64,000 nt of DNA from Niallia alba. GTDB lineage: Bacteria > Bacillota > Bacilli > Bacillales > Cytobacillaceae. Below the pieces are notes generated by a model. The model was given only the letters and a program-made list of their open reading frames with translations, was not told where the DNA came from and ran no database searches. Position numbers and translations under genes: made by a program. Below, piece by piece: positions 14,838-46,302 of the stretch. The stretch's first letter is position 1; each line of letters starts with the position of its first letter. Location of the stretch: positions 970,001 through 1,034,000 of the forward strand of contig NZ_JABBPK010000001.1 of the NCBI RefSeq assembly GCF_012933555.1. The letters are read 5' to 3'.

Positions 14838-14990
14838 AACACATAATTAAAATAATACTAAACAATCTTGAGATTGTACAGATAGGAATATATAGAGAAA
14901 ATTTACCAATTTTTCTTGAGGCAGTGGATTACATAACGGAAAGTATGTTATACTTTAGGTACTTAGAACGAAAGGGATGATGGGTGAACG

Positions 14991-15002
14991 ATGAAGAACT
15001 AA
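14991..15002 (+). CDS. Candidate 3-codon leader peptide (MKN) of the ABC-F attenuator
   Basis: ATG AAG AAC TAA preceded by GGTGA at short spacing. Its stop codon lies inside the left arm of the first leader hairpin, so a ribosome stalled here would melt that hairpin. Too short for any homology evidence; the call rests on position alone. Confidence 0.5.
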   Translation: MKN

Positions 15003-15187
15003 TCTTATTTTTCAAAAATTTGAATGAAATAAATTTCAAATTAAACAAAAATAGGATTAGTCTGCCCATTTCCATAAATCGCTTTTCTGTGTGTATCTCT
15101 AATGGTATGCGCACAATTATTGATCGATATGCACAGTTTTTTTGTATGCGATCGCGATTATGAACGAGCAAATAATTAGGTATGGCT

Positions 15188-15222
15188 AATCCTTCCAACG
15201 ATAATTGGGAGGATTTTTTTCT
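15188..15222 (+). terminator. Attenuator terminator upstream of the ABC-F gene
   Basis: An 11-base-pair stem (15188-15198 with 15205-15215, one G-U) with a 6-base loop and a run of seven T, ending about 25 bases before the ABC-F start codon. Its left arm can be captured by the upstream segment aggattag. Confidence 0.85.
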
Positions 15223-21661: not shown

Positions 21662-21911
21662 TTTAATCGCATTCTCCCTTTCAAGTTTGACTGCTTTTTA
21701 TAAAGATAACAAAAATAAATCGAGAAATTATGGATGAAAAATGGAGATTTTGTGAATTTTTCGATTCAACTGAAGAAGAGGATAGGTTAGTTATGTAAAA
21801 AAAATGTGAAAAAAGTCCTTTCTCTCTCTTGTTTCTCTAACTATTTTCCTATAAAATTTGTAATAGAAGAAAAAGGAAATACATATATTTCATTATTTAA
21901 ATAGAATAATA

Positions 21912-22040
21912 TGATAAAGGCAAATTCATCGAAAGGTGAAGACGCAAAGCTATAGGGACTAAGATCTTGGAGATTAAGTCAGCCAGTTACCGATTTATCT
22001 TTATAAACGGAAGGCTAATCGGTAGAAGATTAGCCTTTTT
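21912..22040 (+). ncRNA. c-di-GMP-I (GEMM) riboswitch with downstream terminator
   Basis: The conserved core lies at about 21919-21990: gcaaa, then the GAAA tetraloop hairpin atcgaaaggtga, then gacgcaaagctatagggact, and the closing cagccagttaccg. P1 can form between gataaa (21913-21918) and tttatc (21994-21999). An intrinsic terminator with a 10-base-pair stem (22011-22020 with 22028-22037) and a T run follows. The segment taccgatt (21988-21995) can pair with aatcggta (22017-22024), which would disrupt the terminator; it overlaps the P1 strand. This predicts that ligand binding favours termination (OFF), an inference from pairing only. The gene downstream encodes a diguanylate cyclase. Confidence 0.9.
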
Positions 22041-42046: not shown

Positions 42047-43258
42047 TTATTCGTTGATTAAGCTTTCTTGTTTATCTTGTACAGATTCATTACTTAAATA
42101 GTTTAATGTCGCAGAGCCTAATGTCTTAGCTGCGATCAAAAGAGAGTGTTCATCAATATTGAATTTCGGATGATGATGTGGATAGACTTCCTCCCAGTTA
42201 GGATCCATTGCACCTGTAAAGAAGAAAGCACCTTTTACATGCTGCAAGTAATACGCAAAATCTTCTCCGCCCATAATTGGATCGCAAATTCTTACTTGTT
42301 GAACTTCCTCAATTTGTTCTGCATGCTTGATGATAAAGTCTGTTTCTTCTTTATGATTTACAACAGCAGGATAGCCACGTTTAAAACGATAATCATAAGA
42401 TGCGCCAACCATCTGGCATGATGCCTGAATGACATTTCCGATTTCCTTCTCAATTAAGTCACGAGCCTCATCGTGGAATGTACGTGCTGTTCCACTTAAT
42501 TTTACTGTATCGGCAATAACATTGAAGGGATTTTGAGCTACAAAATTACAAACAGAAACAACAGCAGGATGTAATGGATTCACGCGTCTTGATACAATTT
42601 GCTGCACATTGGTGATAAATTGTGCACCGATCATAATCGCATCTTTTGTCATATGTGGTTCCGATCCATGACCACCTTTTCCTTGAATGGTAATATCAAA
42701 TTGGTCTGCAGCTGCCATTAGAGGACCAGCGTTAATCATGATATTTCCAACTGGTTCTGTTGCCCATAGATGGGTTCCAAAAATCACGTCTACACCTTCT
42801 AAACAACCATCCTCAATCATCGCAATGGCACCACCTGGAGATAATTCCTCTGCAAATTGATGAATAAACACGATGTTTCCTTCTATGTCTGCTTGCAGCT
42901 TGTTCAATGCTTTTGCTAACACTAATAAAGTAGCCGTATGACCATCATGACCACAAGCATGCATAACGCCGTCTACCTTGGATTTATAAGGGATATCATT
43001 TTCCTCTTGGATAGCAAGTGCATCAAAGTCCGCACGTAATGCAACGGTTTTACCAGGTTTGCTGCCTCTAAGTGTAGCAACAACCCCACGACCGCCGACG
43101 CCAGTTCTTACTTCATGCCCTAATTTTTGATGATATTCTGCAATATAAGCAGGTGTATATACTTCATGATAGGATAATTCCGGATGTTCATGGAGATGAC
43201 GTCGAATCTCAATCATCTCTTGTTCATATTCTTTTAATAGCGAAAATAAAGCTTCCAT
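42047..43258 (-). CDS. M20-family amidohydrolase (N-acyl-amino-acid / aminobenzoyl-glutamate type)
   Basis: A 403-residue metal-dependent amidohydrolase. The metal-site motifs of the YxeP/AbgA/IAA-amino-acid-hydrolase group are clear: LRADFDAL, VMHACGHDGHTATLL with the ligand Cys, FAEELSPGG and the late GGEDFAYYL. It would remove an acyl or aromatic-acyl group from an amino acid. The gene lies 85 bases downstream of an AbgT transporter on the same strand, which suggests import and hydrolysis of p-aminobenzoyl-glutamate-like compounds. The ATG follows GAGGGG. Confidence 0.88.
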   Translation of the reverse strand: MEALFSLLKEYEQEMIEIRRHLHEHPELSYHEVYTPAYIAEYHQKLGHEVRTGVGGRGVVATLRGSKPGKTVALRADFDALAIQEENDIPYKSKVDGVMHACGHDGHTATLLVLAKALNKLQADIEGNIVFIHQFAEELSPGGAIAMIEDGCLEGVDVIFGTHLWATEPVGNIMINAGPLMAAADQFDITIQGKGGHGSEPHMTKDAIMIGAQFITNVQQIVSRRVNPLHPAVVSVCNFVAQNPFNVIADTVKLSGTARTFHDEARDLIEKEIGNVIQASCQMVGASYDYRFKRGYPAVVNHKEETDFIIKHAEQIEEVQQVRICDPIMGGEDFAYYLQHVKGAFFFTGAMDPNWEEVYPHHHPKFNIDEHSLLIAAKTLGSATLNYLSNESVQDKQESLINE

Positions 43259-43343
43259 GTTTACCCCTCATTTCAATTTTTTTAAAATTATATGTAGCAC
43301 GGCAACCAAAAGATTCAGGTTGCACGTAGTGAATCGTCTAAAA

Positions 43344-44900
43344 TTATTTTAAGAAGATAGGATCCCCTGGTCCTAAAGGAAGTCCGCATAAGTACCAAAT
43401 AGCGAATAAGAGAATCCATGTAATGGCAAAGAAGATGGAATAAGGAAGTAAAGCAGATATTAAGGTTCCAATCCCAATCGACTTATCGTGTTTTCTTGCA
43501 AAGGCTAAAAGAATCGCAAAGTAAGCAAGCATTGGCGTGATTGGATTTGTGATAGAATCTCCAATTCGATAAGCCATTTGTGTTAATGCTGGACTATAGC
43601 CTAAATACATAAACATTGGTACAAAGATTGTAGAAAGTAATGCCCATTTTGCAGATGCGCTAGCAATTAATAGATTAATAAAGGAACAAATAATGATGAA
43701 GCCAATAATCATTGGCAGTCCAGTAAAGTTCATCGCTTGAAGCAATTCGGCACCTTTAATCGCAAGAATCGGACCAATATTACTCCAGCTAAAGTAAGCA
43801 ATCATTTGTGCAGCGACAAAAGCTAGCACGATAAACGGTGCTAAGTCCGCAATGGATTTAAATAATTTTTCTGCCACATCTTTATCATTTTTAACCGTTT
43901 TGGAACCAATACCATATGCTAAAGCAGGTAATAAAAAGAAAAATAGCATAATCGGAACGATAGAAGACATAAATGGTGAGTTAATAACAGAGCCTGTCTC
44001 TAAATCACGTAACCAACCATTTCTTGGAATAACCATTATTAAAATGACAGCAAAATAGATGATTAGGGTAATACCTGCAAAACGTAGACCTCTTTTTTCA
44101 TTGGCAGTTACTTGATCTAGTTTTTGTACCACTCCGGTGTATTTTCCAAAGCGCGGTTCCACAAATTTCACCGTAACCCAAGTAGTGACAGCAACTAATA
44201 CAAAGGTAGAAATGATTAAGAAATAATAATTCATTGTCGGATTTCCCACATAATTTGGATCTACTACCTTTGCTGCTTGCTCCGTAATTCCCGCGAGCAG
44301 GACATCTAAGGAATTTAGAATTAAGTTAGCACTATATCCACCAGCGATCGCTGCATAGGTAGCAATAAGACCGACAATTGGACTTCTTCCTACGCTCATA
44401 AAGATGAGGGCTGCGATAGGAGGAAATACGATAAATGCTGCATCGGCAGCAATATTGCCAAGAACCCCAGTGAAGACAATGACAGGCAGTATTAATTTTT
44501 TAGGTGCACTTAACACCGTTCTTTTCATAACAGTTTGGATAAGACCTGTCGTTTCTGCAAGACCTACACCTAGCATAATGACTAATACTAGTCCAAATGG
44601 AGGGAAGGACGTGAAGTTGCTCACCATACTTGTTAAGATTTGAATAATGCCTTCGCGATTCAGTAAATTAACTACTTCAATTGTTTCGCCTGAGCTCGGA
44701 TTCGTAGCAGAGACGCCAAGTAACGATAGTAAATAAGAAGCGATTAAAATAATGGCAGACATGATGACAAATAACGTAATAGGATCAGGTAACTTATTAC
44801 CTGCACGTTCAATGACGTTTAAAAATCTGTCCGCTAGTTTGGTTTTACTAGGCGGAGTTGGTTCTGCGTAATTTGGCCGTTTTTTTGCAAGTTCGCTCAT
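43344..44900 (-). CDS. abgT: AbgT-family transporter
   Basis: A 518-residue membrane protein of the AbgT family with about 11-13 helices. Conserved stretches include the N-terminal GNKLPDPITLFVIMS, FPPFGLVLVIMLGVGLAE, AADAAFIVFPPIAALIFM and the C-terminal GDSITNPITPMLAYFAI. Family members import p-aminobenzoyl-glutamate (AbgT) or export sulfonamides by proton antiport (MtrF, YdaH). Pairing with an M20 amidohydrolase favours the import-and-cleave role. Start is ATG with GGAGG nine bases upstream. A 7-base-arm palindrome lies 100 bases upstream. Confidence 0.9.
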   Translation of the reverse strand: MSELAKKRPNYAEPTPPSKTKLADRFLNVIERAGNKLPDPITLFVIMSAIILIASYLLSLLGVSATNPSSGETIEVVNLLNREGIIQILTSMVSNFTSFPPFGLVLVIMLGVGLAETTGLIQTVMKRTVLSAPKKLILPVIVFTGVLGNIAADAAFIVFPPIAALIFMSVGRSPIVGLIATYAAIAGGYSANLILNSLDVLLAGITEQAAKVVDPNYVGNPTMNYYFLIISTFVLVAVTTWVTVKFVEPRFGKYTGVVQKLDQVTANEKRGLRFAGITLIIYFAVILIMVIPRNGWLRDLETGSVINSPFMSSIVPIMLFFFLLPALAYGIGSKTVKNDKDVAEKLFKSIADLAPFIVLAFVAAQMIAYFSWSNIGPILAIKGAELLQAMNFTGLPMIIGFIIICSFINLLIASASAKWALLSTIFVPMFMYLGYSPALTQMAYRIGDSITNPITPMLAYFAILLAFARKHDKSIGIGTLISALLPYSIFFAITWILLFAIWYLCGLPLGPGDPIFLK

Positions 44901-45049: not shown

Positions 45050-45078
45050 TTTACAATAAATAAATTATAAAGTAGTAT
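45050..45078 (+). promoter_or_regulatory. Candidate sigma-A promoter of the corA leader
   Basis: -35 TTTACA (45050-45055) and -10 TAGTAT (45073-45078) separated by 17 bases. The transcript would start about 34 bases before the small leader ORF. Confidence 0.5.
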
Positions 45079-45118
45079 GTAATAGGTTTAAAGAATACTA
45101 GTGAGGAGTTGAATTTTT

Positions 45119-45250
45119 ATGAGTAATCGAATGTGTATGGAACCTGAACCGGAACCCACGGCCATGAAAGAGGAAGTCATGAATAACCCTTCCTTTAGAA
45201 GTTTGAATACTGATAAAGATTCAACTTTATTTGGCAGAGAATTTTTTTGA
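45119..45250 (+). CDS. Small 43-codon leader ORF with Glu-Pro alternation upstream of corA
   Basis: An open frame of 43 codons, ATG to TGA, preceded by GAGGAG (45103-45108). Residues 7-14 read MEPEPEPT, an uninterrupted run of three Glu-Pro pairs; the rest is polar, without a signal or membrane segment. The stop codon lies one to three bases before a hairpin that hides the corA ribosome site. In enterobacterial mgtL, an EPDP stretch near the N-terminus destabilises ribosomes at low magnesium and so controls the MgtA transporter. This ORF shares that logic and position, not the sequence. I do not recognise the peptide itself; it could also be an ordinary small protein. Confidence 0.6.
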   Translation: MSNRMCMEPEPEPTAMKEEVMNNPSFRSLNTDKDSTLFGREFF

Positions 45251-45272
45251 TTTCCTCTATAACTAGAGGAGG
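45251..45272 (+). promoter_or_regulatory. Hairpin sequestering the corA Shine-Dalgarno
   Basis: tcctcta (45253-45259) pairs with tagagga (45264-45270) around a TAAC loop; the right arm includes GAGGAGG, the corA ribosome site. Upstream, agaggaag (45169-45176), inside the leader ORF just after the Glu-Pro codons, is complementary to tttcctct (45251-45258) at seven of eight positions and could compete for the left arm, freeing the ribosome site. Confidence 0.55.
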
Positions 45273-45279
45273 TAAAAGC

Positions 45280-46218
45280 ATGAAAAAAATTTATATTTCT
45301 ACGGAAGAAGGAATGCTGAAAGAAACGGATAGCATGATGAATGGCTGCTGGATCAATTTAATTGCCCCAACAGAAACCGAAATAACGGAAATTGCTACCG
45401 GTTTAGATATTCCATTTGCGTTTATGAAAGATCCATTGGATGAAGAAGAGCGTTCAAGAATTGAAAAGGATGGGGAAAATGTATTAATAATTGTTAATCT
45501 TCCTCTTGTTTCCTTTGATGAGAAAAATATGCCAATTTATGACACCATCCCATTAGGCATGATTATTGCGAAGAATTGCTTTATTACGGTTTGCTTAAAG
45601 GATAATCCGATATTTCATCAATTTTCAGAAGGCAGAATGAAGAGCTTTTTTACGTATAAAAAAACACGATTTTCTTTGCAAATCCTATATTGTATGGCAA
45701 CTGCTTATTTAAAATATTTAAAGCAAATCAGCAAAAAGACAGATAGTATTGAAAAGGAACTTCACCAGTCCATGAAAAATAAAGAGCTATTTTCTTTGCT
45801 TAATATAGAAAAAAGCTTAGTATATTTTACTACTTCCTTAAAATCGAATAATATTGTCATGCAAAAAATGCTTAAAAGCAATTATTTGAAAATGTATGAT
45901 GATGATCAAGAATTATTGGAAGATGTTATTATTGAGAATCAGCAGGCAATTGAGATGGCAGAAACTCATATGTCTATTTTAAGTGGGATGATGGATGCTT
46001 TTGCTTCGGTTATATCTAATAATGTTAATATTGTGATGAAATTCTTAACATCCTTTACGATTATATTGTCATTGCCAACAATGGTTGCAAGCTTCTATGG
46101 AATGAATGTTCATATCCCATTTCAAGATGTACCCTATTCTTTTACAATCGCGATTATGATTTCCTTCTTACTATCAGGCGTAACGGCTTTGGTCTTTTGG
46201 AAGAAGAAGTTTTTTTAA
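45280..46218 (+). CDS. corA: CorA-family divalent cation transporter
   Basis: A 312-residue CorA-type channel for magnesium (or cobalt/nickel). A soluble N-terminal domain with a long helical stalk is followed by two C-terminal transmembrane helices joined by the signature YGMNV loop (about residue 274; SFYGMNVHIPF), and the tail ends in KKKFF. Length fits the pentameric family. The ATG at 45280 has GAGGAGG at seven bases; the in-frame upstream extension (to 45247) overlaps the leader ORF stop and is not family-like. Control is probably at the RNA level through the leader ORF and hairpin. No M-box riboswitch is visible. Confidence 0.92.
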   Translation: MKKIYISTEEGMLKETDSMMNGCWINLIAPTETEITEIATGLDIPFAFMKDPLDEEERSRIEKDGENVLIIVNLPLVSFDEKNMPIYDTIPLGMIIAKNCFITVCLKDNPIFHQFSEGRMKSFFTYKKTRFSLQILYCMATAYLKYLKQISKKTDSIEKELHQSMKNKELFSLLNIEKSLVYFTTSLKSNNIVMQKMLKSNYLKMYDDDQELLEDVIIENQQAIEMAETHMSILSGMMDAFASVISNNVNIVMKFLTSFTIILSLPTMVASFYGMNVHIPFQDVPYSFTIAIMISFLLSGVTALVFWKKKFF

Positions 46219-46271: not shown

Positions 46272-46302
46272 AACTCCTCCTTTTGAAAGGGAGGAGTTTT
46301 TT
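46272..46302. terminator. Terminator between corA and the AraC-type gene
   Basis: A 9-base-pair stem (46272-46280 with 46290-46298) with a loop that can add pairs, followed by six T residues on the plus strand. It can also serve the convergent AraC-type gene. Confidence 0.85.

Follow-up and report, generated by a model that had tools for sequence, protein, structure and literature searches.

A widespread acidic-proline leader upstream of corA in Bacilli: a putative translational switch set by ribosome position

In a 64,000-nucleotide stretch of the Niallia alba genome (contig NZ_JABBPK010000001.1, positions 970,001 to 1,034,000; hereafter the window), the transporter gene corA is preceded by a leader containing a short open reading frame (ORF) with Glu-Pro codons and three RNA helices, one of which holds the Shine-Dalgarno (SD) sequence of corA. 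Judged from the comparison of homologous sequences, the leader switch is genuine; it occurs widely, is undescribed as far as the searches reached, and is a variant of control by acidic-Pro and upstream ORFs (uORFs). We propose, with a probability of roughly 0.64, that it is an independently evolved translational switch for a Mg2+-type transporter, operated by ribosome position and the nascent peptide. The host genome is 5.24 Mb in size, and 13 genomes served as the genus sample.

The features of the leader are listed below, with the basis of each assignment in brackets; the helices are designated P1, P2 and P3.

45103-45108, + strand: leader SD, GAGGAG (sequence; AGGAGTTG is largely kept at the same place in homologues)
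45105-45120, + strand: 5′ strand of P1, made of the leader SD and the first bases of the start codon (folding; helices in homologues)
45119-45250, + strand: leader ORF of 43 codons, peptide MSNRMCMEPEPEPTAMKEEVMNNPSFRSLNTDKDSTLFGREFF (ORF list; conserved in homologues)
45140-45157, + strand: EPEPEP codons, codons 8-13, an instance of the conserved [D/E]P[D/E]P motif (codon conservation)
45169-45179, + strand: 5′ strand of P3, AGAGGAAGUCA, whose core GGAAG begins 14 nucleotides (nt) past the last Pro codon (covariation)
45213-45228, + strand: 3′ strand of P1, within the leader ORF (folding; helices in homologues)
45248-45258, + strand: 3′ strand of P3, UGAUUUCCUCU, which includes the stop codon of the leader ORF and the larger part of the P2 left arm (covariation)
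45250-45259, + strand: left arm of P2, the corA SD hairpin (folding, covariation)
45264-45273, + strand: right arm of P2, holding the corA SD GGAGG at 45268-45272 (folding, covariation)
45280-46218, + strand: corA, 312 amino acids (aa) (Pfam CorA, PF01544, E 4.3e-59)

In the window, P1 is a helix of 16 bp, P2 a hairpin of 10 bp, and P3 consists of 11 contiguous pairs, one of them G-U, with the stop UGA inside its second strand. The leader fold has a z value of -3.35, and 2 of 200 shuffles were equally good. The original prediction, made from the letters of the window, had described a 43-codon ORF with a ribosome site and a Glu-Pro run, followed at once by a hairpin over the corA SD; both are present where it placed them (SD gaggag at 45103-45108; hairpin at 45250-45273 with the SD in its right arm). 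It had also assigned to the segment 45169-45176 a competing pairing of 8 bp. The segment is there, but its pairing is longer, 11 bp (45169-45179 with 45248-45258). P1, lying over the leader SD and start, was not mentioned.

Within the genus, 12 of the 13 genomes have this corA and the leader is found in all 12, with a peptide of the form MS(N/T/S)...EP(E/D)PE(P/S); the 13th genome (G005) is without this corA. Wider searches were carried out with two covariance models, R1, built from 11 leaders, and the broader R2. R1 matched 111 of 193 family genomes and 54 of 397 genomes of the order sample. When 96 R1 hits were read individually, 82 lay before a CorA gene and 11 before a DUF1003-type gene of ~180 aa, and 3 were dropped (L118, L120 and L123, removed prior to the R1 counts). 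In the order sample, where this CorA subfamily was called at E <= 1e-60, it occurs in 105 of the 397 genomes. The leader is present in 86 of them, absent in 18 and unjudged in one, G413, whose gene is only partial at the site and whose upstream region is not properly covered; two of the 86 (G094 and G122) were counted from the model hit alone, L307 and L324, which an automatic table passed over through an end limit, were counted as present on reading, and the leaderless list was set by hand. The original prediction had named as the outcome that would speak against it an ORF or Glu-Pro run not kept in close relatives. This outcome was not obtained: the ORF is kept in the 12 genus genomes and in these 86.

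A pattern scan of named genomes gave, among the 80 listed of the 105 stretches reported, 66 with CorA downstream, 6 Paenibacillus leaders without CorA and 8 chance matches. Two of the 66 CorA loci are imperfect (L168 has a short match at the locus end; in L177 no motif ORF was found by the script), and 6 of the 72 non-chance loci, in which the script found no downstream start codon, were excluded from the leader set. Leader loci among the named records belong to Niallia, Neobacillus, Mesobacillus, Rossellomorea, Metabacillus, Peribacillus, Priestia, Cytobacillus and Paenibacillus. In the class sample, R2 matched 32 of 398 genomes, 16 of them genuine on reading, with four match places that had no locus left unread. 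The genuine hits include four families outside the order, with L269 before CorA and L270, L272 and L276 before DUF1003; neither CorA nor DUF1003 was found behind L275, L279, L281-L284 and L286-L293. In the phylum sample of 299 genomes, the ten hits besides the window (L294-L303, E 3e-4 or weaker) had neither CorA nor DUF1003 and no motif ORF. By its named members the element belongs to the class Bacilli, and in the genomes sampled none was found outside this class.

Conservation limited to the genus is ruled out by the order and class matches, and a chance ORF by conservation in the genus and order sample together with the codon-level selection described below. A first wide pattern search had returned 7 hits outside the genus, of which just L029 and L032 were homologous, the covariance models finding the remainder; the other five proved to be start sites of other genes and not leaders.

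Some individual loci deserve mention. G500 (L084, L125), G038 (L061, L126) and G562 (L099, L338) carry corA twice, with a separate leader version before either copy, and so provide natural pairs in which motifs can be compared. At L118/L275 (G312:C39:5699-5843) an EPDPDP leader-like ORF has neither CorA nor DUF1003 behind it; it may be a remnant, a chance match or the leader of a third target. L138 has an intact leader, the corA frame behind which seems broken. L207 (record titled Chryseobacterium) and L170 (titled Paenibacillus) carry leader and corA near the Mesobacillus/Neobacillus versions, and the record names may be wrong.

Selection on the leader peptide was analysed in two sets of dissimilar leaders, one of 59 (less than ~80% alike) and a larger one of 69. 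The start codon is at the same place in 59/59 (ATG in 27, TTG in 32), and the leaders are 25-47 codons long. [DE]P[DE]P, that is EPDP, EPEP, DPDP or DPEP, is found in 45/59, and PxP within the first 20 residues in 52/59; the exact motif is also present in 55 of the 84 order-sample leaders read. In the larger set it occurs in 51/69, against 0.39 expected on shuffling the same N-terminal residues. The entropy of the four motif codons, computed over the 69 leaders with no conditioning on the motif, is 0-0.59 bits at positions 1-2 and 1.75-1.92 bits at position 3; Glu and Asp codons interchange freely in the motif, as do all four Pro codons. With the first two positions nearly fixed and the third nearly saturated, the codon pattern argues that the motif is selected as peptide. 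Past the motif the peptide seems free to change: the frame is shifted between motif and P3 in 2/59 leaders, and ORF ends vary. The position of the stop codon, which varies among the 59 leaders, is ruled out as a conserved feature. The leader peptides had no match in Pfam or NCBIfam. In L065 and L233 the EPEP codons and the P3 strand stand in different frames, and in G233 the leader ORF reads MDPDAHSR.

The Pro codons raise another explanation, a Pro-codon attenuator in which ribosomes would wait at these codons when proline is short, the leader gauging charged tRNA-Pro or the activity of elongation factor P and not Mg2+. The acidic residues are indeed less widely kept than PxP, KPGP or NPGP with no acidic neighbours occurs in a few lineages, and the Salmonella mgtCBRU leader is described as responsive to charged tRNA-Pro in the accessible part of PMC8092293. 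Sensing of tRNA-Pro, however, does not need the Asp or Glu that precedes each of two successive Pro in 45/59 leaders. Moreover, mostly just two Pro codons are present, in all four synonymous forms, and the gene behind the leader is CorA or DUF1003 in the loci read, with no proline gene. A Pro-codon attenuator therefore appears very unlikely.

Covariation, which the original prediction had proposed as a check of both pairings, was scored for P3 on a sequence-only MAFFT alignment of the 69 leaders. P3 is paired in 93.9% of 690 cells compared with 43-60% in controls with a slid strand. Two-sided changes are seen in 8/10 pairs and 32 cells (shuffle means 3.7 and 8.6; 0/500 shuffles for each), and the covariation score is 0.280 against at most 0.123 in the slid controls. 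Compensated examples could be read by eye, among them GAGGGGGUC:GGCCCCCUC (L276), GAGGGAGUCGUG:CAUGGCUCCCUC (L270) and AGGCAGU:ACUGCCU (L318). P2 is paired in 95.7% of 552 cells, with two-sided change in 5/8 pairs and 10 cells (shuffles 1.9). P1 is the significant best helix (p<=0.05) in 49/59 leaders; scored by fixed columns, 81.4% of 467 cells are paired, with 18 two-sided cells compared with 8.7 in shuffles. P2 and P3 share one strand and so exclude each other, and the retention of both is what would be expected of a switch. By these comparisons pairing of the leader RNA is under selection as well, besides the peptide. In family f32 (L313, L316-L318) the corA leaders have a different P3, GGCAG:CUGCC, and a recurring CTGTTCGTAA stretch; they look like a diverged subclass.

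The front edge of a ribosome was taken to lie 15 nt past the first base of the peptidyl (P) site, the toeprint distance. From the last Pro codon to the GGAAG core of P3 the distance is 14 nt in 33/59 leaders and 11 nt in 15/59, the others having 8 nt (5/59), 2 nt (3), 15 nt (2) or 20 nt (1). In the 14-nt leaders the edge stops 4 nt short of the core when the last Pro occupies the aminoacyl (A) site and 1 nt short of it when this Pro occupies the P site; in the 11-nt leaders the corresponding edges lie 1 nt before the core and 2 nt into it. Openness of the corA SD was computed in the 69 leaders by folding only the RNA ahead of the ribosome edge, in folds that leave out pseudoknots. Mean openness was 0.35 with the edge 4 nt upstream of the core and 0.02 nine nt into it, the whole RNA giving a mean of 0.10 and a median of 0.01. 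The SD was more open 4 nt before the core than 9 nt past it in 68/69 leaders, by more than 0.1 in 50, and more open at the core than 9 nt past it in 66/69, by more than 0.1 in 24.

Folding was also computed for the stage of transcription at which the P2 right arm is not yet made. At this stage and with a ribosome 4 nt upstream, the probability of P3 averaged 0.89 and exceeded 0.5 in 66/69 leaders (0.997 in the window). In the full leader with the waiting ribosome it averaged 0.66 (0.27 in the window). When the ribosome was removed at the earlier stage, P3 in the window fell to ~0 and P1 formed instead.

The position of the P3 strand bears on a switch made of RNA alone, in which a P1/P3 pseudoknot would sense Mg2+ directly and the ORF would have a minor part or none. 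The topology of P1 and P3 allows a pseudoknot, and a direct effect of Mg2+ on tertiary RNA is plausible. We nevertheless regard such a switch as highly improbable: the motif is under codon-level selection, the ORF start is shared by 59/59 leaders, the P3 strand starts at ribosome-edge distance, and by eye no conserved unpaired aptamer-like core was seen in the leader alignments.

For the ribosome-position switch the following sequence of events is envisaged. A ribosome would load on the leader before P1 closes. At low cytosolic Mg2+ it would be destabilised at the acidic-Pro codons, by drop-off or a pause, and drop-off, or a pause no later than when the last Pro occupies the A site, would leave the P3 5′ strand free. 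This strand would then capture the P2 left arm as it is transcribed, exposing the corA SD so that CorA is made. At sufficient Mg2+ the ribosome would run over the P3 segment, P3 would be prevented, P2 would form and corA would be off. A full-length leader without ribosomes would fold into P1 and P2 and likewise be off, and P1 should shut the leader start after the first ribosome or ribosomes.

By analogy with the enterobacterial leaders considered below, magnesium is likely the cue. An M-box (RF00380), which the original prediction had not seen here, was found nowhere in this genome by a search that was positive in B. subtilis and L. lactis. The same switch could respond to something else, if this CorA subfamily moves Co2+, Ni2+ or Zn2+ or if the leader reports a general stress on ribosome stability. 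In NCBIfam the window CorA falls below the cut-off of TIGR00383 (Mg/Co CorA) and matches ZntB weakly. This other-cue version nonetheless appears unlikely. Low Mg2+ is the condition to which PMC11282234 ties ribosome drop-off at the acidic-Pro motif of MgtL; a B. subtilis strain deleted for yfjQ (a corA homologue), mgtE and yloB is defective in Mg2+ transport (PMC4072509); and no M-box was found in this genome. The second corA of the genome (C1:1296461) has no acidic-Pro ORF within 250 nt upstream, and a search of the genome with R2 gave one strong match, all others having E >= 0.0178.

The leader is not restricted to corA. In Paenibacillus, five leaders (L181, L189, L190, L201, L233) with EPEPD, EPDPD or EPEPE stand before a DUF1003 gene (PF06210, confirmed by Pfam); the sixth Paenibacillus leader without CorA is L241. 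The three loci in families of other orders (L270, L272, L276) have VPEP, NPDP and DPSP leaders before DUF1003, assigned by similarity, and in genus g47 and in G251 leaders with GESDNLP or similar precede DUF1003. The R1 loci before DUF1003-type genes are L102, L104 and L107-L115. None of the 13 genus genomes gave a DUF1003 match, and no literature linking DUF1003 to magnesium was found within a partial coverage. A leader type common to corA and DUF1003 predicts a shared cue and, by analogy, suggests a role of DUF1003 in cation homeostasis; M-boxes earlier pointed to new Mg2+ transporters in the same manner (PMC4072509, accessible part). Eleven of the leaderless corA genomes fall in g47, and ten of them have the scaffold before DUF1003 (G214, G368, G393, G416, G437, G478, G497, G517, G536, G572). 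Transfer or loss of control in one lineage is a possible reading of this pattern, in which corA is without the leader and DUF1003 has a scaffold with altered motif.

Several results weigh against the switch as proposed. At the level of the alignment, slid controls of P3 reach 26 two-sided cells (32 observed) and 22 pair types (21 observed), so that the pairing percentage and the covariation score separate P3 best; one slid version of P2 has 11 two-sided cells compared with 10 observed, and the number of two-sided pairs in P1 is no better than in shuffles (310/500). The exact motif is lacking in 29 of the 84 order-sample leaders, which read among others DPDT, GPEP, NPDP, KPGP, NPGP and DSDAHP; the g47 leaders before DUF1003 are GESDNLP-like; and 18 of the 105 CorA genes are leaderless, besides the one unjudged. 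In the simulations, SD openness was only 0.16 in mean and 0.05 in median with the edge at the core, and 0.03 three nt into it. Given this steep drop, a ribosome whose P site has reached the last Pro would already cover too much, chiefly in the 11-nt leaders, and the switch therefore needs a ribosome that halts early in the motif, before the last Pro enters the P site, or that leaves. Without a ribosome, before the P2 right arm is made, P3 still had a mean probability of 0.45 and exceeded 0.5 in 32/69 leaders, the window not among them; in about half of the leaders P3 could thus form briefly without a ribosome. The window itself opens its SD weakly at equilibrium (0.08 compared with 0.03), because P2 and a local hairpin compete. 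Given this weak opening and a P3 probability of 0.997 before the P2 right arm, the switch in the window is likely decided during transcription, i.e. kinetically.

A further result in this group is that an edge 8-12 nt into the 3′ strand of P3 also opens the SD, to ~0.5. Plain translational coupling would use exactly this effect: the terminating leader ribosome would open P2, and P3 and the acidic-Pro motif would merely tune leader output. The stop codon lies -26 to +22 nt from the P3 3′ strand in 59/59 leaders and exactly at it in 17. Its position varies, though, some stops being 11-22 nt past the start of the P3 3′ strand, with the ribosome on or near the corA SD, and others 10-26 nt before it; in the 2/59 leaders noted above the frame has changed between motif and P3. 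Coupling also leaves the P3 covariation and the motif unexplained, and it is quite unlikely.

In its logic the proposed switch is closest to Salmonella mgtQ, and its motif is that of MgtL, EPDP. As described in the accessible text of PMC8092293, mgtQ is an 8-aa ORF in the mgtC-mgtB intergenic region whose acidic codons free the mgtB ribosome-binding site (RBS) through a 2:3 stem, and loss of its start codon lowers mgtB. In both cases a short ORF containing conserved acidic codons stands immediately before the gene of a Mg2+ transporter, and the stem that hides the target RBS is dissolved by an alternative pairing, which in the window acts weakly at equilibrium. In mgtQ, target translation is raised by the acidic codons and is low when the ORF is untranslated; the same logic is proposed here. 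mgtQ control is further marked by dependence on the acidic codons and on ribosomal protein L31. The two differ in that no sequence relation is seen, the acidic residues here alternate with Pro, the leaders have 25-47 codons, and the genes controlled are corA or DUF1003 in Bacilli. Nor is there a counterpart of stem 1:2, as the ORF is not paired directly with the competitor strand; here that strand sits in the loop of P1, a helix between the leader start and a part of the ORF further downstream than the competitor.

The original prediction had compared the leader to mgtL, the leader of enterobacterial mgtA, in which ribosome dissociation at the EPDP motif at low Mg2+ turns the transporter on (PMC11282234, accessible part). 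This comparison stands for the acidic-Pro motif near the N terminus (45/59 and 55/84 leaders) and probably not for the mechanism, since mgtL works by Rho-dependent transcription termination, whereas the architecture in Bacilli points to translation, at the corA SD, for which mgtQ, with its RBS release at the level of translation, is the closest precedent. That the leader is unrelated to mgtL, as had been stated, holds as far as tested in Rfam: no match was obtained at the gathering threshold, and up to E 5 just one small nucleolar RNA and one microRNA family appeared.

The corL uORF before corA in E. coli and Salmonella has a UUG start, a stem sequestering the uORF SD and exclusive ON and OFF folds, in the portion available of PMC11552253. 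The Bacilli leader resembles it in being a uORF upstream of corA, in the UUG start, in the uORF SD lying in a stem (cf. P1) and in the exclusive folds, and differs from corL in that the latter contains just one Pro and works together with Rho. In E. coli, stem A of the corA leader lies over the corL SD, and the same text argues that ribosomes must load there during transcription. The gammaproteobacterial corA motif is reported from Gammaproteobacteria and metagenomes only, according to the accessible part of PMC6429828. No description of a corA uORF in Bacillota was found in the literature searched, whose coverage was partial, with most subscription journals outside it.

Two other kinds of leader are relevant to the comparison. 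The M-box riboswitch (RF00380), a direct RNA aptamer, controls Mg2+ transporters in Bacillus; the present leader, unlike it, has no RF00380 match. In the translational attenuators of erm type, the position of a ribosome on the leader ORF frees a downstream SD in response to an antibiotic. The corA leader is similar in that ribosome position would free the SD, and different in its acidic-Pro motif and in its proposed cue, Mg2+. More generally, it has what marks a ribosome-dependent translational attenuator, namely peptide-level selection and exclusive folds at the downstream SD.

If the proposed switch is correct, Bacillota resemble enterobacteria in using ribosome stability during translation as a gauge of Mg2+, and the same acidic-Pro motif was reached independently, which would suggest a general property of ribosomes put to use by evolution at least twice. 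The leaders would then form a natural sequence set with which the Mg2+-dependent destabilisation of Gram-positive ribosomes can be dissected, could account for Mg2+ control in this genome, where no M-box was found, and would give a functional lead for DUF1003. A more extended reading, to which we would give even odds, is that of a Bacilli-wide, independently evolved Mg2+ gauge: acidic-Pro destabilisation of the ribosome would act through a one-shot switch of three helices, P1 closing the start after the pioneer ribosome, and would control both CorA and DUF1003. DUF1003 would thus be part of Mg2+ homeostasis, and the peptide chemistry convergent in two phyla.

Two further features flank the corA transcription unit.

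45050-45078, + strand: possible promoter, TTTACA, a 17-nt spacer and TAGTAT, a weak match to the consensus (9/12) (promoter scan)
46272-46298, + strand: terminator-like site 3′ of corA (terminator scan)

The promoter scan of the region gave 8 sites compared with 7.5 expected by chance and is hence uninformative; a stretch like the candidate promoter is present in the nearest relatives, L002-L007, and not further out. The terminator scan found no terminator-like site upstream of corA, in the leader. The stretch 42047-44900 on the - strand, divergent from the leader, has the gene of an AbgT-type transporter (Pfam 2.1e-200) beside an ORF that resembles an M20 amidohydrolase, the latter as judged by eye only. 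Elsewhere in the window, Rfam places a c-di-GMP-I riboswitch at 21909-21994 and the Bacillus small RNA ncr1575 at 14959-15220.

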